Below the pieces are notes generated by a model, which had not been told where the DNA came from, did no database searches, and saw only the letters and a program-made list of their open reading frames with translations. Of a DNA stretch of 64,000 nucleotides, positions 8,186 to 35,423 are shown piece by piece (position 1 is the first letter of the stretch; each line of letters opens with the position of its first letter). The DNA lies in contig NZ_CP019789.1 in NCBI RefSeq assembly GCF_002022685.1, positions 744,001 to 808,000 of the forward strand, read 5' to 3'. The translations under genes and the position numbers were made by a program. This stretch comes from Bartonella schoenbuchensis R1 (lineage in GTDB: Bacteria; Pseudomonadota; Alphaproteobacteria; Rhizobiales; Rhizobiaceae).

Positions 8186-8460
8186 CACAGTTGATAAGAT
8201 ACTTCATCCGAACATGGGCTATAAGCTTTCAACAAAGGATCCAATGTTCGGGGAAGTTCTGAATTGCCAAAATCTGTAAGAATTGCCAAAATCTTGAGAG
8301 TATCTGGAGTCTCACTTTGAAGCTTTGCAATTAAAGCCTTTTCTACTACAATCATAATTTTAACCAGAGTCCTACAGTCATCTATTTCAATATTCTCACG
8401 ATCGGCAAACTGAAACAAAGTCATCCACAAATCACATAAAAAATCGACACTGTTACTCAT
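8185..8460 (-). CDS. Small phage protein of unknown function, coupled to the Rha gene
   Basis: I choose the ATG at 8460, which overlaps the stop of the Rha/KilAC gene (ATGA) and has GGAGG six bases upstream. The 91-residue product (MSNSVDFLCDLWMTLFQF onward) is helical and acidic with no recognised motif. Tight coupling suggests it is expressed with the antirepressor and may modulate it; no function can be named. Confidence 0.6.
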   Translation of the reverse strand: MSNSVDFLCDLWMTLFQFADRENIEIDDCRTLVKIMIVVEKALIAKLQSETPDTLKILAILTDFGNSELPRTLDPLLKAYSPCSDEVSYQL

Positions 8461-9197
8461 TGCACACCTCCATGGAATTGTTCTCTTAGGCATGCCAATC
8501 CTTTGACTGTGATTTTTGCACTGGAAACGCTCATTTTTGTTCCGTCTGATTTTTGAATGGTGTGGATTACACAATCCATCAGTCCTTTCCTAATTTTATC
8601 CTGATAAGGTAACATGGGTCCACCCGGAAAATTACGATAAGCCCACTTATGAAACTGTAAGTGCTTAGTAAAATCTGTGGGACGTACATCTAACATCTTT
8701 GCAGCTTCATATAAAGCAAACAGGCCGTCAGACCGTTTTAAATGTTCAAGTGCTTCTGCTTTTGGTTTAAGTGTTTTAACTTCAGTTCTTAAATCTTCCA
8801 ATTGTGTAATGCTCTCTAAAAGCAGTTGCCTAATTGTGAGAGGATTCTGTAAAGCATTTGCGAGGTCTAGTTGGGAATTTCCTCCTTGTTTTTCCAATTC
8901 TTGCCAGCGGTCTATAATTTTAGCTCGTAATGTTGTGCTGTAACCTGATACAAGAATTAAACATTCACGTTTTGGAAGATAATAGCAGGGGCGACTTTCC
9001 CCTTTTTTATCAAAGTAATTGCCCATCAAACTAACCGCCCCAAATTTGGGGGCGTTAAGTTCTTCAAGCATTTTCTTGATATCACGCATAACGTGGTCAT
9101 GCCTTTTACCACATAATTCAGCAATTTCATGGCTAGACATAGTTTGAACCGTCGCACTGTTAGCAGTGCTTTCTTTTATTTCTATGAGAGTGTTCAT
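8457..9197 (-). CDS. Phage regulatory protein: Rha-type N-terminus with KilAC antirepressor C-terminus
   Basis: Residues ~18-110 match the Rha family (SSHEIAELCGKRHDHVMRDI, then GAVSLMGNYFDKKGESRPCY and LPKRECLILVSGYS). Residues ~150-246 match the KilAC/ANT DNA-binding domain (LYEAAKMLDVRPTDFTKHL, then WAYRNFPGGPMLPYQDK and ITVKGLACL). The linker holds LANALQNPLTIRQLLL, also present in the next gene. Such proteins relieve phage repression or regulate host genes. A ~200-nt structured element with its own promoter (9233-9479) lies directly upstream. Confidence 0.85.
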   Translation of the reverse strand: MNTLIEIKESTANSATVQTMSSHEIAELCGKRHDHVMRDIKKMLEELNAPKFGAVSLMGNYFDKKGESRPCYYLPKRECLILVSGYSTTLRAKIIDRWQELEKQGGNSQLDLANALQNPLTIRQLLLESITQLEDLRTEVKTLKPKAEALEHLKRSDGLFALYEAAKMLDVRPTDFTKHLQFHKWAYRNFPGGPMLPYQDKIRKGLMDCVIHTIQKSDGTKMSVSSAKITVKGLACLREQFHGGVQ

Positions 9198-9232
9198 ATT
9201 TTTTCACCTAGTTGTAATAAACGTTTTTGATT

Positions 9233-9479
9233 GACACTCAAAAAGAGTGCCGGGTGCTCAAAAACACGGCAACTAGCCCGTCGTTATGCTTTCCCCATAA
9301 AGGGTATTGTATAGCATAACTACACCCGACAAGATCACTATACGTCATACGCATACAATGAGTCAAAGCCTTTAATATGTGCGGAAGACTGATTATTTCG
9401 GCAACCAATCCGCTAGTTGTTTTAAGGTGTTTTTGAAGCACCTGATTCGCATATAGACGTATTCCTGCTATGTTGTCAA
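9233..9479 (-). ncRNA. Candidate structured RNA upstream of the Rha/KilAC gene, copy 1 (Brt-like)
   Basis: On the minus strand, TTGACA (9479-9474) lies 18 bases before TATATG (9455-9450), giving a promoter for a ~200-nt transcript. Three stems follow: GGTG/CACC (9426-9442), GTTATGCT/AGCATAAC (9283-9290 with 9313-9320, inner CCC/GGG), and CACTC/GAGTG around five A (9235-9249). Copy 2 at 9889-10136 keeps the promoter and stems while loops change and reading frames break, which argues for RNA rather than protein. The arrangement, a genus-specific RNA directly before a DNA-binding gene, resembles the Bartonella regulatory transcripts (Brt) as I recall them. Confidence 0.55.
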
Positions 9480-9861
9480 TAGATAAAAGCAATTGTCTAA
9501 TTGTGAGAGGATTCTGTAAAGCATTTGCGAGATTTAAAGGCTGTTTTGCTTTCCGTTCGCATTCAATGAAGTACTGACGGGCTTGTTTACCTTTCTTGTT
9601 ATTCTCAACCATAGACAGCTCTTTTGCTACACTTAAGGTGAGATGATATTCTTTTAATACCACATTTTTACGTTTCCCAATTTTGGGAAGCGTTATAATA
9701 TAGTCTTTTCCTTCTTCAAATTCATACTGATTAATGCGGTTTGTAATCCAATCCGCAAACTTTTTGCCGACTTCCAAAAAAGCGTGTAAGTCACGTGCAT
9801 TGACTGTTTGAACAGTTTCCTGTCCAACAGTTTGTTCTGATATTGTTATGAGAGTGTTCAT
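9238..9861 (-). CDS. AntA/AntB-type phage antirepressor, C-terminally truncated
   Basis: Residues 1-110 are a good AntA/AntB domain: TVNARDLHAFLEVGKKFADW, INQYEFEEGKDYI, YHLTLSVAKELSMVENN, then KGKQARQYFIECERKAK. After LANALQNPLTIRQLLL the expected KilAC domain is missing. The remaining ~75 residues come from reading through the promoter and body of the structured element 9233-9479, so they are probably not a genuine domain. The start has AGGAGTTC upstream of ATG. A second copy of the element precedes this gene. It may act as a domain-only regulator or be a decayed gene. Confidence 0.65.
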   Translation of the reverse strand: MNTLITISEQTVGQETVQTVNARDLHAFLEVGKKFADWITNRINQYEFEEGKDYIITLPKIGKRKNVVLKEYHLTLSVAKELSMVENNKKGKQARQYFIECERKAKQPLNLANALQNPLTIRQLLLSIDNIAGIRLYANQVLQKHLKTTSGLVAEIISLPHILKALTHCMRMTYSDLVGCSYAIQYPLWGKHNDGLVAVFLSTRHSF

Positions 9862-9888
9862 AATGAACTCCTATGCAGTTAAATGTTT

Positions 9889-10136
9889 GTTAATGACACC
9901 CAGAAGGGCGCCGGGTGTTAACAAACACGGTGCATAGTCCGTCGTTATGCTTTTCCCATGAGGGTATTGTATAGCATAACCACACCCGACGAGGTCACTA
10001 TACGCTACACGCATACAATGAGTCAAAGCCTTTAATTTACGGAAAAAAGACTGTCTCGGCAATCTATCCGCTATGCACTTAAGGTGTTTGTTAAGCACCT
10101 GATTCGCATATATAAACGCTTCCGTGATTTTGTCAA
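9889..10136 (-). ncRNA. Candidate structured RNA upstream of the AntA/B gene, copy 2 (Brt-like)
   Basis: TTGACA (10136-10131), a 16-base spacer and TATATA (10114-10109) form a near-consensus minus-strand promoter. The body repeats copy 1: the GGTG/CACC stem, the GTTATGCT/AGCATAAC stem (9944-9951 with 9973-9980, inner CCC/GGG), and a terminal ACACCC/GGGTGT stem (9896-9901 with 9913-9918) that differs in sequence from copy 1 but keeps a hairpin. The antirepressor ATG follows at 9861 after a short leader. A 92-residue frame across it is not conserved with copy 1 in its middle. Confidence 0.55.
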
Positions 10137-10171
10137 ACAAAAAATTCACCGCACTTAGTTAAGTAAGGGGG

Positions 10172-10375
10172 TTTCGCTAAAATTTTAGCGAAAGTCATAT
10201 CCTTCCTTTGTTTAATAGACATACGGCCGCCTCTGCCTTTGCTCCCCAAAATGGGGGAGCAAACAAAGTCTTGATTTTCAACAAATTCAAATTGATTAAT
10301 ACGTTCAGTAATCTAATCTGCAAAATCACTCCCCTCAATTTTGAGTTCAGTACTTTAATTCTTCAAAGCCATTTA
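10172..10375 (-). pseudogene. Relic of a third AntA/AntB antirepressor
   Basis: Minus-strand translation gives SDFAD, an in-frame TAG where the family has Trp, then ITERINQFEFVENQDFV and GSKGRGGRMS, matching the AntA/B core of the 9861 and 16540 genes. Only ~60 codons survive. The fragment ends in a perfect 22-bp palindrome (10172-10193, half-site TTTCGCTAAAA) that could be an operator or a hairpin. It lies upstream of structured element copy 2, so the locus looks like a decaying array of element plus antirepressor units. Confidence 0.6.
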
Positions 10376-13889: not shown

Positions 13890-13996
13890 AATTTATTATC
13901 GTAGCTTATTTCGGTACAAAATCAACAAAAAATGTAATGAAAATCACAAAAGATTTTTTTTCTAACAAAGATATAATGAAAACTATGAATAGCATT
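13890..13996. promoter_or_regulatory. Divergent control region of the lysogeny switch
   Basis: The gap between the cro-like gene and the repressor is 47 bp if the repressor starts at 13937, or about 107 bp if its ATG is at 13997 (MKIWLSEALQES), which would leave more room for two promoters and operators. I see no perfect palindrome here; the call rests on gene layout. Confidence 0.4.
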
Positions 13997-14572
13997 ATGA
14001 AAATTTGGTTAAGTGAGGCCTTGCAAGAATCTGGATTATCTCAATCATCACTTGCTAGACAACTGAGTGAGAAAATGCAGCGCCCTATCTATCGTTCTGC
14101 AGTCAATAAAATGCTAACAGGAGAACGGGGAATAAGTATGCAAGAGGGTATAGCAATTGAAGAAATTACAAAATATCCTCTTCCGCGCAAGAAAACTATA
14201 CCCTTAATGGGCTATGTGGGAGCAGGTTCAGAAGTTACTCCCTATGAAGATGGTTGGCTTGAGGAAGTGGAAATACCTCCATACATCACAAAAGATACAT
14301 ACGCAGTAAAAGTTGAGGGCGACTCAATGGAACCATTCATTGAAGATAAATCTATTTTGTTTTACTCACAAAACATGTCTCCAAATTTACTTCTTAACAA
14401 AAAAGCAATTGTCTACACGCAGGATGGACGTTGTTTTGTAAAGATCGTGAAGCAAGGCAGTAAACCCGATTTATTTAATTTAGAAAGTTTAAATAGGCTA
14501 TATCCAGAAATAAAAGATATCCAATTAGTATGGGCTGCACCTATAGACTGGATAAAACCACCAAGACTTTAA
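13937..14572 (+). CDS. Prophage repressor, LexA/CI-like with S24 autopeptidase domain
   Basis: Residues 21-80 hold a helix-turn-helix (EALQESGLSQSSLARQLSEK, then SAVNKMLTGERGIS). Residues 88-200 are an S24 self-cleaving domain with cleavage site Ala96-Gly97 (YVGAGSE), nucleophile Ser130 (EGDSMEP) and base Lys169 (CFVKIV). The family is inactivated by RecA-stimulated self-cleavage, so this prophage should be SOS-inducible. The start could be 13937, 13979 or 13997. The next gene begins nine bases downstream on the same strand, as rexA follows cI in lambda. Confidence 0.88.
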   Translation: MKITKDFFSNKDIMKTMNSIMKIWLSEALQESGLSQSSLARQLSEKMQRPIYRSAVNKMLTGERGISMQEGIAIEEITKYPLPRKKTIPLMGYVGAGSEVTPYEDGWLEEVEIPPYITKDTYAVKVEGDSMEPFIEDKSILFYSQNMSPNLLLNKKAIVYTQDGRCFVKIVKQGSKPDLFNLESLNRLYPEIKDIQLVWAAPIDWIKPPRL

Positions 14573-30537: not shown

Positions 30538-32814
30538 TCAATATCGTCTTTGTTTATAGGAATTACGTTCCCGTTTTTTTGCTGTAAATTTGTTTTTACG
30601 ATAGGGAATGGATGAAAAAGTAAACGAATGAGGTTGCGTTAATATTTCAAAACATAAAGCACCAGCAAGAGGCTGTACTTCTATAAGCTTTACCTCTACC
30701 TCGTCGCCAAGTTGATAGCCTTTGCAACTCCATTTTCCTATAAGGGTATGTTGTGTTTCATCAAAATGATAGTAATCGCGTTTAAGTGTGGAAATGGGCA
30801 CAAAGCCGTCTGCATTTAGTTTATCAAGTGAAATAAAAAGACCTGCTTTTGTAACTCCAGAAATGCGACCTTTAAATGAATGGCCTATTTTATTAGCCAA
30901 ATAATGTGCAACAAGCCGATCAACAGTTTCTCTTTCAGCCATCATTGCACGGCGTTCATATGCAGAGATTTGTATGGCAATTGCTGTTAAATTTTGTTCT
31001 TGTGAATCTGTTAGTTTGTCGTCACCTAATTGCAGGGCTTTAATAAGCGCTCGATGAACAATTAAATCAGCATAACGACGGATTGGTGATGTAAAATGTG
31101 TATAGTTATGCAGATTTAAGCCAAAGTGACCTATATTTTCAGGATTATATTCAGCTTGAGATTGTGAGCGTAAAATAACCTGATTAACCAATTCCTGTTG
31201 TTGTGTATTAATGACTTGCGTAAGAATATTATTGAATCGTTCTGATGTAAGTTCTGCTTTTCGAGAAAATGATATCCCTAAACTCTGAAGAAAGTTCTGT
31301 AGTATTTCTTGTTTTGCGAGAGATGGTTTGTCATGAACGCGATAAATAAAGGGCTGATGATGTTCTTTTAATGTTTCCGCGGCTGCAACATTAGCTTGTA
31401 TCATAAATTCTTCAATTAAACGATGTGCTTCTAGATGAGGTGGAACCACGACATCTTTAATGCGCCCATTTTGATCAAGAATGATCTTTTTTTCTGGTAC
31501 CTCTAATTCAAGTGGTTTTCGACGATTGCGTGCAATTTTGAGTTTGGTATAAGCTCTCCACAATGGTTGCAAGATATTCTCAAGAAGAGGGGCTGTTTTT
31601 TCATTTGTATTTCCTTCAATTGCACATTGTACTTCTTGATAGGATAGTTTAGCTACCGTACGCATAATAATACGGTGGAAACTATGTTTGCGTTTGTTGC
31701 CATTTGCATCAAAAATCATACGAACAGCTAAAGCAGGCCTGTCTTTTCCTTCAAGAAGAGAGCATAAATTATTAGAGATGTATTCAGGAAGCATTGGTAC
31801 AACGCAATCAGGAAAATAAACAGAATTGCCTCGTTTCAATGCTTCTTGGTCTAAAGCACTTCCTGTTTTCACATAATAAGAGACATCTGCGATTGCTACA
31901 GTGACAATCCAACCATCGTTATTTGCAGGATCTTCATCTTTTACGGCATAAACGGCATCGTCATGGTCTTTTGCATCTGGTGGATCAATTGTAATAAACG
32001 GTAACTGTCGCCAATCTTCACGATTTGTTGTGCTGACAATAGGTTTTGCATCTTTAGCTTGCTTCAAGACCTCTTCAGGAAAAACATAAGGAATTCCTTT
32101 TGAAATAAGCGCAATCATTGAAAGTGCTTTTTCACTATCGATAGATCCCAAAACATTTTTTACTTTTGCGTTTTTTGATCTGTAAGCTGTATTTTTTCTA
32201 ATTTCAGCTTCAACGAGATCACCCGATTTTATATCAACATCTAAGGGTGTTTCAATAATTAGGTCATTAGTTTTACGGTCTATAGAACAAAGCTGCCATT
32301 GGTTATTTTCTAATTTTTTTACTATGCCAAGCATAGTCCTTTCTTGCTTATTAATTTTGCGTATAATACGCCCTGTATAGGAAAAACTTTGAGGGGTCTT
32401 ATTTCGAAAAATTTTTACAAGACAGTGATCTCCAAGACTAATACTGACTCCTTTTATATAGCGAGGAGGTATTTCAATATTTGGCGTTAAATCACCCTTC
32501 CATTCAAGAGGGTGTGCAATAAAACCGCCATTATTATCTGATGCACTTATTTTAACTAAAGTAACAGGCGGCAGTCTTTCTTGAGTCGTTATTTTCTTAT
32601 GTTTTTTTGATATAGAGCTAGGATCCTTCAACTGATCGAGCATATCTTTCAACCAACGGCGAGAATCGCCTTTTAAATTAAAAGCCTTAGCGATTTCGCG
32701 TTTATTTAATAGGTTAGGATTATCAGTAATAAAGGACAAAATTTCTGCTTTATTAGGTAGTCGTTCAGTATAAGAAGACTGAAGATATTTTGTTTTTTTC
32801 TGACCTTTAACCAA
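30538..32814 (-). CDS. rnr: Ribonuclease R
   Basis: The 758-residue RNase II/R-family exonuclease has an N-terminal HTH region (LLNKREIAKAFNLKGDSRRW), cold-shock-like domains, the RNB catalytic centre ITIDPPDAKDHDDAVYAVKD with its Asp cluster, NNLCSLLEGKDRPALAVRM, YTHFTSPIRRYADLIVHRAL, and a C-terminal S1 domain (FKGRISGVTKAGLFISLDKL). A basic tail ends the protein. It degrades structured RNA 3' to 5' and aids rRNA and tmRNA turnover. It follows topA at 59 bases. Confidence 0.96.
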   Translation of the reverse strand: MVKGQKKTKYLQSSYTERLPNKAEILSFITDNPNLLNKREIAKAFNLKGDSRRWLKDMLDQLKDPSSISKKHKKITTQERLPPVTLVKISASDNNGGFIAHPLEWKGDLTPNIEIPPRYIKGVSISLGDHCLVKIFRNKTPQSFSYTGRIIRKINKQERTMLGIVKKLENNQWQLCSIDRKTNDLIIETPLDVDIKSGDLVEAEIRKNTAYRSKNAKVKNVLGSIDSEKALSMIALISKGIPYVFPEEVLKQAKDAKPIVSTTNREDWRQLPFITIDPPDAKDHDDAVYAVKDEDPANNDGWIVTVAIADVSYYVKTGSALDQEALKRGNSVYFPDCVVPMLPEYISNNLCSLLEGKDRPALAVRMIFDANGNKRKHSFHRIIMRTVAKLSYQEVQCAIEGNTNEKTAPLLENILQPLWRAYTKLKIARNRRKPLELEVPEKKIILDQNGRIKDVVVPPHLEAHRLIEEFMIQANVAAAETLKEHHQPFIYRVHDKPSLAKQEILQNFLQSLGISFSRKAELTSERFNNILTQVINTQQQELVNQVILRSQSQAEYNPENIGHFGLNLHNYTHFTSPIRRYADLIVHRALIKALQLGDDKLTDSQEQNLTAIAIQISAYERRAMMAERETVDRLVAHYLANKIGHSFKGRISGVTKAGLFISLDKLNADGFVPISTLKRDYYHFDETQHTLIGKWSCKGYQLGDEVEVKLIEVQPLAGALCFEILTQPHSFTFSSIPYRKNKFTAKKRERNSYKQRRY

Positions 32815-32873
32815 AATTTATGCCTCTTTTATTTTAGAAGGGATTCTTTCGATGTTGTCTTTTTCTTGTGTAA

Positions 32874-35423
32874 CTATTTTTTCCTATTCACTCTTTGCCC
32901 TTTTTTAGGGGTGGATGCTTTGGCTAAGAGAAGGTCTAATGCTTCTGAAAGTGTTACATCAGCGGGGTCTTTATCTTTTGGTAATGTGGCATTAATTTTT
33001 CCCCAATTTACATACAAACCATAACGTCCATCGCGCACAGTGACAGTTCCACCTTCTGGGTGCTCACCTAATGTGATCAGTGCTTCAGGTGTTATCCGGC
33101 CCCGTTTTGTTTTATTTTCTTGTTTTTCAGCTAACACTGTAACAGCACGGTTGATACCAATTTCAAAAACTTCATTGATATCAGAAAGATTTGCAGATTT
33201 TCCGTCATGAGAAAGATAGGGGCCATATCGCCCAATTGTGGCTGTGATTATTTTTCCTGTTTCAGGGTGAACTCCAATTTCACGGGGAAGAGATAGCAAA
33301 GATAGGGCTTGATTAAGATCAATATTTTTTCTTGCCCACTCTTTTGGTAGCCCTACACGTTTTGCTCCTTTATCTTGACCAAGTTGAATATATGAACCAA
33401 AGCGACCAGTGCAAAGAAAGATATCTTTTCCCGTTTCATGATCAACGCCAAGTACAAGAGGCTCGTCACTGCGGACAGCTTCACTTTCTTCTTCTGTATC
33501 TATACCAAGTTGGCGTGTATATTTGCATTCAGGATAATTGGAACAGCCAACAAATGCACCATAACGCCCTAATTTTAGCGATAACTGGCCATTTGTACAA
33601 AGAGGACAAGATCGGGGATCACTTCCATCTTCACGCGTAGGAAAAGCAAGAGGTGCTAATATTACGTTTAAGGCATCAAGGACATGCGTTATACGCAATT
33701 TCTGGATATCGGTAACGGATGCATTAAATTCATTCCAAAAGTCATGTAAAACATCTTTCCAAGCTAGTTTTCCATCCGATATAAGATCGAGTTTTTCTTC
33801 AAGATTTGCTGTAAAGTCGTACTCTACATAACGGTTAAAGAAACTTTCAAGAAAAGCTGTGACAATACGTCCTTTAGCATCAGGAACAAGCTTTCGTTTA
33901 TCAGTTACAGTATAGCCACGTTCAGAAAGTATCGCTAATATAGAGGCATAAGTTGAAGGGCGACCAATACCCAATTCTTCAAGTTTTTTGATTAATGAAG
34001 CTTCAGAATAACGGGGAGGGGGCTCTGTAGTGTGTTGAGTTACCTCAACTTTTTCTTTTGTTAGTGCTTCATTAGCGTTGATGTGGGGTAGGCGCGCTGA
34101 TTCATCATCTTCACTATTTTCTTCATCTCGTTGATCGGTATAGGCAGAAATAAAACCATCAAAGCGAATAACAGACCCTGTTGCACGCAAATTTGCATTA
34201 TTTTTTCCTTGAATCGCTTGAATTTCGACTGTTGTACGTTCAATTTCAGCAGAACACATTTGGCTTGCAATAGCGCGTTTCCATATCAATTCATATAATT
34301 TTGCTTGATCACTATCAAGAAAATTGCGTATTTGATTGGGGTTGCGTTGAAAATCTGTTGGGCGAATAGCTTCATGCGCTTCTTGTGCATTTTTTGCTTT
34401 TGTTGAATAAAAACGTGGTTTTTCAGGAACATAGTTATTACCAAAGGATTCTTTAATCACTTTTCGTGCTGAATCAATGGCTTCTGTTGCCATTTGTACA
34501 CCATCTGTACGCATATAAGTGATAAGACCTGATGTTTCACCATTAATTTCAACACCTTCATAAAGTTTTTGTGCAATTCGCATAGTACGAGAAGGAGAGA
34601 AACCTAATTTTGAAGAGGCAGCTTGCTGTAACGTGGATGTTGTAAATGGTGGGGAAGGATTTCTTTTTATAGGTTTTGCTTCAACATTTAAAGTACGATA
34701 TTCTGCCTCCTCCAGCATGGAGCGGATTTTTTCTGCTTGTTCTAAGGATTTAATATCAAGCTTTCCAAGTTTTTCTTGGTTAAATGCTACCAGTCGCGCG
34801 TAAAAATTATCATCTCGAATCGTTTTTAAGGATGTTGTAATCGACCAGTAATCTTCTTTAATGAAATGTTCTATTTCTGATTCGCGATCGCAAATAATAC
34901 GTAAAGCAACCGATTGAACACGACCAGCTGAACGGGAACCTGGTAGTTTACGCCATAAAACAGGTGAAAGTGTAAAACCAACCAGATAATCAAGAGCGCG
35001 GCGCGCAAGGTAAGCATCAACGAGCGATATATCAATATCACGCGGATTATTCATAGCATCAAGTACAGATTTTTTAGTGATTGCGTTGAAAACAACCCGT
35101 TTAACAGGTTTATCCTTTAAAACTTTTTTTTGATTAAGAACATCAAGAATGTGCCATGAAATGGCTTCCCCTTCACGGTCGGGGTCTGTTGCCAAAATAA
35201 GACTATCAGCTTCTTTAACTGCTTTTGCTATTTCATTTAAACGTTTTGCAGAAGCAGTATCGACATCCCATTTCATGGCAAAATCTTGATCAGGTAGAAC
35301 CGAGCCATCTTTTGCAGACAAATCACGCACATGCCCAAATGATGCTACTACTTTATATTGAGGTCCAAGATATTTATTAATTGTCTTTGCTTTAGCTGGA
35401 GATTCGACGATAACGATATCCAT
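32874..35423 (-). CDS. topA: DNA topoisomerase I
   Basis: The 849-residue type IA enzyme has the Toprim domain (VESPAKAKTINKYLG at 6-20, metal-binding ATDPDREGEA at 78-87), the active tyrosine Tyr303 in SGLITYMRTDG, and LGIGRPSTYASIL. One zinc ribbon (CPLCTNGQLSLKLGRYGAF, then CSNYPECKYTR) and three C-terminal TopA repeats follow (FGSYIQLG, YGPYLSHD, YGLYVNWG). It relaxes negative supercoils. It is followed by rnr and preceded by dprA in the usual rhizobial order. Confidence 0.97.
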   Translation of the reverse strand: MDIVIVESPAKAKTINKYLGPQYKVVASFGHVRDLSAKDGSVLPDQDFAMKWDVDTASAKRLNEIAKAVKEADSLILATDPDREGEAISWHILDVLNQKKVLKDKPVKRVVFNAITKKSVLDAMNNPRDIDISLVDAYLARRALDYLVGFTLSPVLWRKLPGSRSAGRVQSVALRIICDRESEIEHFIKEDYWSITTSLKTIRDDNFYARLVAFNQEKLGKLDIKSLEQAEKIRSMLEEAEYRTLNVEAKPIKRNPSPPFTTSTLQQAASSKLGFSPSRTMRIAQKLYEGVEINGETSGLITYMRTDGVQMATEAIDSARKVIKESFGNNYVPEKPRFYSTKAKNAQEAHEAIRPTDFQRNPNQIRNFLDSDQAKLYELIWKRAIASQMCSAEIERTTVEIQAIQGKNNANLRATGSVIRFDGFISAYTDQRDEENSEDDESARLPHINANEALTKEKVEVTQHTTEPPPRYSEASLIKKLEELGIGRPSTYASILAILSERGYTVTDKRKLVPDAKGRIVTAFLESFFNRYVEYDFTANLEEKLDLISDGKLAWKDVLHDFWNEFNASVTDIQKLRITHVLDALNVILAPLAFPTREDGSDPRSCPLCTNGQLSLKLGRYGAFVGCSNYPECKYTRQLGIDTEEESEAVRSDEPLVLGVDHETGKDIFLCTGRFGSYIQLGQDKGAKRVGLPKEWARKNIDLNQALSLLSLPREIGVHPETGKIITATIGRYGPYLSHDGKSANLSDINEVFEIGINRAVTVLAEKQENKTKRGRITPEALITLGEHPEGGTVTVRDGRYGLYVNWGKINATLPKDKDPADVTLSEALDLLLAKASTPKKGQRVNRKK

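Follow-up and report, generated by a model that had tools for sequence, protein, structure and literature searches.

We analysed a 64,000-nucleotide stretch of the Bartonella schoenbuchensis R1 genome (NZ_CP019789.1, positions 744,001 to 808,000), hereafter the window, in which positions are counted from the first letter. Two copies of a structured element lie on its minus strand, as the original prediction had claimed, and are 81% identical across 238 nt. Each belongs to a unit of ~280 nt on that strand that is followed by an antirepressor gene, and the proposed gene order was borne out, with copy 1 standing 5' of a Rha+KilAC gene and copy 2 standing 5' of an AntA gene, in which Pfam found no KilAC domain. 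A CI-like S24 repressor is encoded at 13937-14572 of the window, which fits a prophage early region, and the elements presumably sit in a prophage. The features of the two units are as follows.

10107 to 10136, minus strand: putative upstream (leader) promoter of copy 2, TTGACA at 10131-10136 with TATATA (spacer 16) or TATATG (spacer 18), the -10 placed by arithmetic
10071 to 10099, minus strand: leader boxes of copy 2, a1 at 10085-10094 inside the hairpin 10083-10099 and b1 at 10071-10077, exact complements of a' and b'
9997 to 10026, minus strand: putative internal promoter of copy 2, TTGACT at 10021-10026 and TATAGT at 9997-10002, the -10 ending 6 nt 5' of the RNA
9902 to 9990, minus strand: predicted C4-type antisense RNA of copy 2, RF02221 match of 55.4 bits, b' loop at 9931-9937 and a' strand at 9918-9927
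9871 to 9893, minus strand: predicted target boxes of copy 2, a2 at 9884-9893 and b2 at 9871-9877, 9 nt 5' of the AntA start codon and into the Shine-Dalgarno sequence
9238 to 9861, minus strand: predicted target gene of copy 2, AntA N-terminal domain (PF08346, E 8.9e-24)
9450 to 9479, minus strand: putative upstream (leader) promoter of copy 1, TTGACA at 9474-9479 with TATATG (spacer 18), the -10 placed by arithmetic
9413 to 9442, minus strand: leader boxes of copy 1, a1 at 9429-9436 inside the hairpin 9426-9442 and b1 at 9413-9419
9337 to 9366, minus strand: putative internal promoter of copy 1, TTGACT at 9361-9366 and TATAGT at 9337-9342, the -10 ending 5 nt 5' of the RNA
9240 to 9331, minus strand: predicted C4-type antisense RNA of copy 1, RF02221 match of 51.7 bits, b' loop at 9270-9276 and a' strand at 9258-9265
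9208 to 9230, minus strand: predicted target boxes of copy 1, a2 at 9223-9230 and b2 at 9208-9214, 10 nt 5' of the Rha start codon and into the Shine-Dalgarno sequence
8457 to 9197, minus strand: predicted target gene of copy 1, Rha (PF09669) and KilAC (PF03374), phrog_63 (anti-repressor Ant)

The GGTG/CACC hairpin reported at the outset was found in both copies (9426-9442 and 10083-10099), as was the GTTATGCT/AGCATAAC stem with its inner CCC/GGG pair, which is the middle hairpin of Rfam family RF02221 (sRNA-Xcc1). A closing stem and a third hairpin, which had gone unmentioned, are also present; the last hairpin has different bases in the two copies, as judged by eye. What had been described as one element of ~200 nt is better read as a leader with boxes a1/b1 plus a separate RNA of ~90 nt. 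The decisive feature had been overlooked: the a and b boxes are repeated three-fold per element. Box b' forms the loop of the third hairpin and a' the strand that follows; both are exactly complementary to their counterparts a1/b1 in the leader and a2/b2 before the start codon. In copy 1, CTAGTTG goes with CAACTAG and GTTTTTGA with TCAAAAAC; in copy 2, CTATGCA goes with TGCATAG and TGTTTGTTAA with TTAACAAACA. The letters of the boxes thus differ between the copies, and within each copy the three places agree. The pair of modules recurs with identical RNAs elsewhere in the same genome (G000:C1:1310133-1310883, plus strand).

Scanning with cmscan placed copy 2 over the RF02221 cut-off of 53 bits and copy 1, matched over its full length, just under it; because the E-values were 7e-9 and 5.2e-8 within 1.3 kb, these matches exceed chance. 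The whole genome holds 11 RF02221 matches at E 1, three of them over the cut-off. The family was found in 15 of 25 Bartonella genomes and, at E 0.001, in 58 of the 398 genomes of a phylum sample (40 above the cut-off), which reaches 37 of 212 genera, so that the family is not genus-specific.

We analysed all 138 genus hits and the best 70 of 102 phylum hits from other genomes (the 32 weakest omitted). These 208 loci yielded 196 distinct RNAs with flanks, 128 from the genus and 68 from outside it. Compensatory changes had been named beforehand as the test of a structured RNA, and the differences between the two window copies indeed track RNA pairing. Folding was then evaluated in an alignment of 73 genus units, which had been selected for exact b1 and b2, so that the b pairs are selected and only the a pairs are unselected. 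The core stems and the leader hairpin were 97.2% paired, with both-sided changes in 10 of 29 pairs and 112 both-sided cells versus 36.9 in shuffles, and sliding by 1 to 3 columns dropped pairing to 35-52%. For a'/a2 plus b'/b2 the score was 0.470 (slid, at most 0.092), with 239 both-sided cells versus 72.7 in shuffles; for a'/a1 plus b'/b1 it was 0.500 (slid, at most 0.082), with 244 versus 70.7. The number of pairs with both-sided changes was not clearly above shuffles for either set (a2/b2, 8 versus 8.0; a1/b1, 9 versus 8.6), and the pair-type counts for the a'/b' boxes in this alignment were below shuffles. For copy 1 the minimum-energy fold matches the family structure, and for copy 2 it takes up part of the a'/b' region in internal pairs.

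The box agreement seen in the window extends through the genus. We applied an exact-box test to 122 of the 128 genus RNAs, chosen by RNA pattern alone. The RNA's own b2 heptamer was found within 70 nt downstream for 106 of the 122, versus 2 of 14,316 code swaps, and the corresponding counts were 108 of 122 versus 107 of 14,316 for exact b1, 99 of 122 versus 648 of 13,098 for exact a2, and 109 of 122 versus 842 of 13,098 for exact a1. Exact b2 was absent in 16 of the 122; by eye, the target gene is gone in ~10 of these and the box is changed in ~6.

A broader measure, the sum of two colinear exact runs, was applied to all 196 distinct RNAs with 5,000 permutations. Downstream, the native mean was 14.27 nt for the 128 genus RNAs (permutations at most 9.73) and, more weakly, 10.40 nt for the 68 outside RNAs from the best 70 of 102 hits (permutations at most 9.01). 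Upstream, it was 16.53 versus 10.72 in the genus and 14.68 versus 10.15 outside it (again the best 70 of 102 hits). At least 12 nt downstream were reached by 115 of the 128 genus RNAs and by 33 of the 68 outside RNAs (best 70 of 102 hits). This measure is poorly specific, as 12 nt was also reached in 20.5% of genus swaps and 9.8% of outside swaps, and by shuffled antisense sequences downstream in 7.1% (genus) and 12.0% (outside). Among the outside RNAs from the best 70 of 102 hits, the downstream boxes are less regular than in the genus. As a positive control, the same script run on C4 of phage P1 returned TTGACAG and GTTAGTG(A), 14 nt up and 15 nt down, and this pairing coincides with the a1, b1, a2 and b2 annotations of the P1 record.

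A core-motif search gave 80 named loci among the matches listed, with 78 of 83 matches examinable; 32 of the 80 were read by eye and all were run through the box script. Where the closing stem was recognisable, 47 of 56 of these matches reached 12 nt on both sides, and where it was not, 9 of 22 did so as well, which makes the count alone a weak test. Among the named loci, clear cases in which one b box occurs both in the leader and upstream of the gene came from Chromobacterium (L210, L283), Pasteurella (L225), Geobacter (L254), Endobugula (L262) and Cysteiniphilum (L265). Although copy 1 itself had no blastn match in phages, blastn plus the core motif, used without covariance-model scoring, placed an element directly 5' of a Bro-N, P22_AR or AntA gene in all four phage records examined of the 11 found (Aaphi23, vB_MhS_1152AP2, Mcat15 and Rac-SA53). 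These four loci have 13-15 paired nt on each side, and three of their genes carry an antirepressor annotation.

The downstream box lies where ribosomes bind. Where at least 12 nt were paired and a gene was identified, the last box is a median of 9 nt from the start codon and falls at 0-15 nt in 122 of 147 loci (outside loci from the best 70 of 102 hits). In the window copies this distance is 9 and 10 nt, and the AG of the box opens AGGAG or AGGTG; judged by this arrangement, pairing would cover the ribosome site. RNAduplex gave -21.0 kcal/mol for copy 2 and -17.2 kcal/mol for copy 1 with their own targets, versus -9.0 and -14.3 kcal/mol for the copy 2 and copy 1 RNAs paired crosswise in the window. 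With another target of the same genome, the copy 1 RNA gave -18.6 kcal/mol against -17.2 for its own, so these calculated energies make cross-talk between modules possible.

The TTGACA promoters of the original prediction are present at 9474-9479 and 10131-10136, and its spacers needed adjustment, to 18 for copy 1 and to 16 or 18 for copy 2. In DNA this rich in A+T, where 35% of shuffled leaders have such a promoter, the upstream sites of the two copies by themselves are weak evidence, but a TTGACA promoter was found in 117 of 128 genus leaders. Outside the genus, it occurred in 11 of 67 leaders versus 6.9% of shuffles (best 70 of 102 hits). The prediction had not included the internal promoter, TTGACT-N18-TATAGT in the window. 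Such a site was found in 76 of 128 genus copies versus 7.3% of shuffles, and in 1 of 68 outside copies versus 1.2% of shuffles (best 70 of 102 hits). Since this site lies just before the RNA, the RNA is probably transcribed on its own in the genus. A terminator-like motif (a G/C run plus T5) preceded the RNA in 34 of 68 outside copies versus 4 of 65 control stretches (best 70 of 102 hits), and in 3 of 128 genus leaders versus 5 of 126 controls. By eye, the outside leader after b1 resembles the leader terminator of P1.

Taken together, the family match, the complementarity of the boxes, the covariation, the position at the Shine-Dalgarno sequence and the antirepressor domains of the genes argue for a C4-type antisense block of antirepressor translation, to which we assign a probability of about 0.85. 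The idea of prophage sRNA or leader switches acting on antirepressors thus stands at its core and is sharpened to C4-type pairing at the ribosome-binding site, and its link to Brt RNAs falls away. The elements would produce a structured RNA of ~90 nt, with the third-hairpin loop exposing b' and the strand from there to the closing stem exposing a'; these would base-pair with the a2 and b2 sites of the next antirepressor's mRNA. Because b2 extends into the Shine-Dalgarno sequence, this pairing would shut the ribosome out, block translation of the antirepressor and keep the prophage quiet. The leader, transcribed from the upstream promoter, would carry a1 and b1 as copies of the target sites; when that promoter is strongly on, the leader would soak up the RNA and free the antirepressor. 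By analogy with IsrK and P1, we put this release by a1/b1 at slightly under even odds.

The genes that follow the RNAs were classified in two samples, 59 of 118 genus targets (every second one) and 59 of 67 outside targets, eight short or doubtful frames having been omitted by hand. In the genus sample, antirepressor PHROGs accounted for 32 of 59 targets and the YdcK beta-solenoid family for 15 of 59. Pfam matches among the 59 outside targets (best 70 of 102 hits) were Bro-N in 5, Rha in 4, KilA-N in 1, P22_AR_N in 1 and SymE in 4. No antirepressor-family match was obtained for 27 of the 59 sampled genus targets and for most of the 59 outside targets. These results suggest that one RNA design governs antirepressors, SymE toxins and beta-solenoid proteins across many Pseudomonadota.

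SymE genes behind RF02221 RNAs were identified by Pfam at L040, three further loci and L334, and from reading the sequences at L060, L177 and L185. Most SymE loci have boxes 5' of the start codon, and a C4-type RNA in place of SymR, within a SymE toxin-antitoxin pair, is a possible arrangement on this pattern. In one genome (G323), five copies (L171, L176, L180, L181, L183) have no paired boxes just 5' of the gene, and behind each lies a small protein with the pattern YxLxxxxxxxLxxLRxQL.

Tandem arrays of up to four modules, ~825-860 nt apart, were observed at G005:C2 6278-8902 (plus) and 32715-34483 (minus), with further arrays at G002:C65 38227-39390 (plus) and G013:C1 716173-717850 (minus); some RNAs are only ~270 nt from the next. 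In these arrays the upstream antirepressor tends to end at the promoter of the next module (junctions judged by eye), either past an NPLTIRQLLL linker or within the first part of the KilAC domain. Such junctions were noted in the window (9238-9861, minus) and at L008, L023, L031, L036, L087, L089, L128 and L130. The 13 genes that are followed by a module have a median of 196 aa and the 49 that are not have a median of 241 aa (p 0.04). The pattern looks like cassette-like recombination at recurrent points.

A more ambitious extension, which we regard as unlikely but worth stating, is that the a/b boxes form a two-part immunity code. Differently coded modules, in tandem or dispersed over Bartonella-type genomes, would each silence the antirepressor next to them, and modules that have lost their gene and consist of the RNA only would be kept to silence the same-code antirepressors of incoming phages. 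We found 90 different codes among the 122 genus RNAs. After identical RNAs had been dropped, no code was shared in 582 within-genome pairs (~3.5 expected) versus 41 of 6,799 pairs between genomes; the own genome holds four identical RNA pairs. About 10 of the 122 modules are, by eye, RNA-only, which is offered in support of such a code. If true, Bartonella would carry an inherited RNA-based superinfection-immunity repertoire, like P1/P7 heteroimmunity, many-fold.

We considered three other explanations of the elements. The first, a cis-acting leader switch (a riboswitch or attenuator, as for Brt) whose fold senses a ligand or stress and so governs transcription or translation of the gene that follows, and whose boxes are alternative hairpins in one molecule, would be compatible with the presence of a1/b1, a'/b' and a2/b2 on one possible transcript, in which a'/b' can take either partner. 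We nevertheless judge it improbable: both copies have an internal promoter 5-6 nt 5' of the RNA, the namesake sRNA-Xcc1 is 88 nt long by its mapped ends and runs as one Northern band of ~100 nt (PMC2996969), and the boxes vary as a code, which is what antisense pairing would be expected to give.

Less probable still is a trans-acting regulator of host (virulence) genes, for which the neighbouring gene is not the target. sRNA-Xcc1 and its relatives in Xylella have been described in this way (PMC12444791, PMC12189769), and the Xanthomonas copies mostly have leader boxes without start-codon boxes; against it, 106 of 122 genus copies have their own downstream site as opposed to 2 of 14,316 swaps. 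Xanthomonas locus L334 (92 bits) lies 5' of a SymE gene and has leader boxes; by eye it has a b2 heptamer 9 nt before the start and a shortened a2, which the automatic test missed. That test found a match ending at the start codon in none of the 10 Xanthomonas copies examined. Of the other nine, seven reach 14-16 nt in the leader, none has a start-codon match, and two attain 13 nt downstream by matching within the gene itself; of the 28 loci put through this test, four had no recognisable core. Given these copies without start-codon boxes, the family may work differently in Xanthomonas.

Finally, a decayed protein-coding repeat, with RNA-like features left over from an ORF (a 92-aa ORF, 9871-10149, and the end of the AntA frame), is hardly credible: minus-strand reading frames do span both copies, and the AntA frame continues through copy 1, but the 92-aa ORF has no Pfam or PHROG match, the changes follow base pairing, and insertions and deletions distinguish the leader of copy 1 from that of copy 2.

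The C4-type antisense reading gives RF02221 a named target and a mechanism that can be tested base by base, and a swappable pairing code could account for the coexistence of related prophages in a single cell. In open full texts, we found no paper in which sRNA-Xcc1 and antirepressor occur together, and the link may be known beyond these; nor do the portions of the sRNA-Xcc1 literature covered here give an antisense target at the next gene.

The original prediction had also likened the elements to the Brt RNAs of Bartonella. Brt RNAs are 194-203 nt long, precede XRE-type genes and are reported to be genus-specific, and one plasmid copy was counted in B. grahamii pBGR3 (PMC5387305). On that plasmid we found, immediately 5' of a gene for a helix-turn-helix protein, a stretch of ~200 nt (L328:3480-3690, plus strand), which by its length, neighbouring gene and copy number we infer to be Brt. 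Neither window copy aligned with this putative Brt at E 1, and RF02221 did not match it. Its relatives, at least 2 to 21 in number, occur in 12 of 25 genus genomes, with 5 (one weak) in the own genome and none in the window. The likeness therefore did not hold up, as the window copies and the putative Brt have no sequence in common and occupy other places in the genome. What they share is the genus, a length of ~200 nt if the leader is counted, and a position upstream of genes for DNA-binding proteins. They differ in that an XRE gene lies downstream of Brt whereas AntA and Rha/KilAC genes follow the window elements, and in that Brt is genus-specific according to its authors (PMC5387305) whereas RF02221 is spread over 37 of 212 genera. 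The two kinds of element can be neighbours: pBGR3 has an RF02221 copy at 2881-2968 on the opposite strand, ~500 nt from the putative Brt, and the second contig of the own genome has the two kinds back to back as well, ~500 nt apart, at G000:C2 11985-12789 and 19333-20137. The notion that Brt-rich species are without RF02221 was dropped, as many genomes hold both.

sRNA-Xcc1 is linked to the window copies by its covariance model, which scores copy 2 above and copy 1 just under the cut-off, and by Xanthomonas locus L334, which has leader boxes and, by eye, a b2 lying 9 nt from the start codon. In the nine remaining Xanthomonas copies examined, start-codon boxes are lacking. In print, sRNA-Xcc1 is an integron-borne, trans-acting RNA under virulence regulators (PMC2996969, PMC12444791, PMC12189769), and the parts of these papers available to us do not describe it as controlling a phage antirepressor. 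A family hitherto treated there as a virulence-related or trans-acting sRNA is now linked to the classical C4 immunity of P1.

Like the RNA proposed here, sar of phage P22 is an antisense RNA that blocks antirepressor translation; the description consulted mentions no C4-type two-box design for it (PMC12197685). IsrK of the Salmonella prophage Gifsy-1 (RF01394) is likewise a short leader RNA before an antirepressor operon, and IsrK supplied in trans raised anrP translation 114 to 171 fold (PMC4825925), making it the nearest tested precedent for the suggested role of a1/b1. The isrK model overlaps c4-a1b1 in the P1 leader, below the isrK cut-off. The window elements differ from IsrK in giving no isrK model match (E 10, in the region), and the genus leaders differ in being without a terminator-like motif, which 3 of 128 have.

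As family identities, the C4, c4-2, c4-a1b1 and isrK models were rejected, none being listed at E 10 in the region. The C4 model (RF01695) gave no match at E 10 in 9000-10300 or at E 1 genome-wide, and the isrK (E 0.5) and C4 models gave none in 20 outside loci; c4-2 was not found genome-wide, which carries little weight as this model was also silent in control genomes. In Rfam 15, RF02221 has no clan, and C4 and c4-a1b1 are both in CL00128.

The closest counterpart in design is C4 of P1 and P7 (RF01695, with c4-a1b1 as RF03163). In P1, synthesis of Ant is repressed by C4, whose b' loop masks the ribosome site while a' contributes specificity (PMC5320573, PMC12197685, PMC8546580). The window elements have the same order of promoter, a1, b1, structured RNA, a2, b2 and a nearby start codon, and likewise place b' in the loop of a hairpin and a' ahead of the closing stem. 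In both systems the boxes are complementary to a1/b1 upstream and to a2/b2 at the ribosome-binding site of the target; C4 governs antirepressor synthesis according to the P1 annotation, and the apparent targets here are antirepressors as well (AntA and Rha+KilAC). The central hairpin and the sequence are different from those of C4. In P1 the sites precede icd, whereas here they lie 9-10 nt before the antirepressor start itself, with no intervening icd frame. In contrast to C4, 76 of 128 genus copies have an internal promoter site directly 5' of the RNA, which may make RNase P-type processing from a longer transcript unnecessary.
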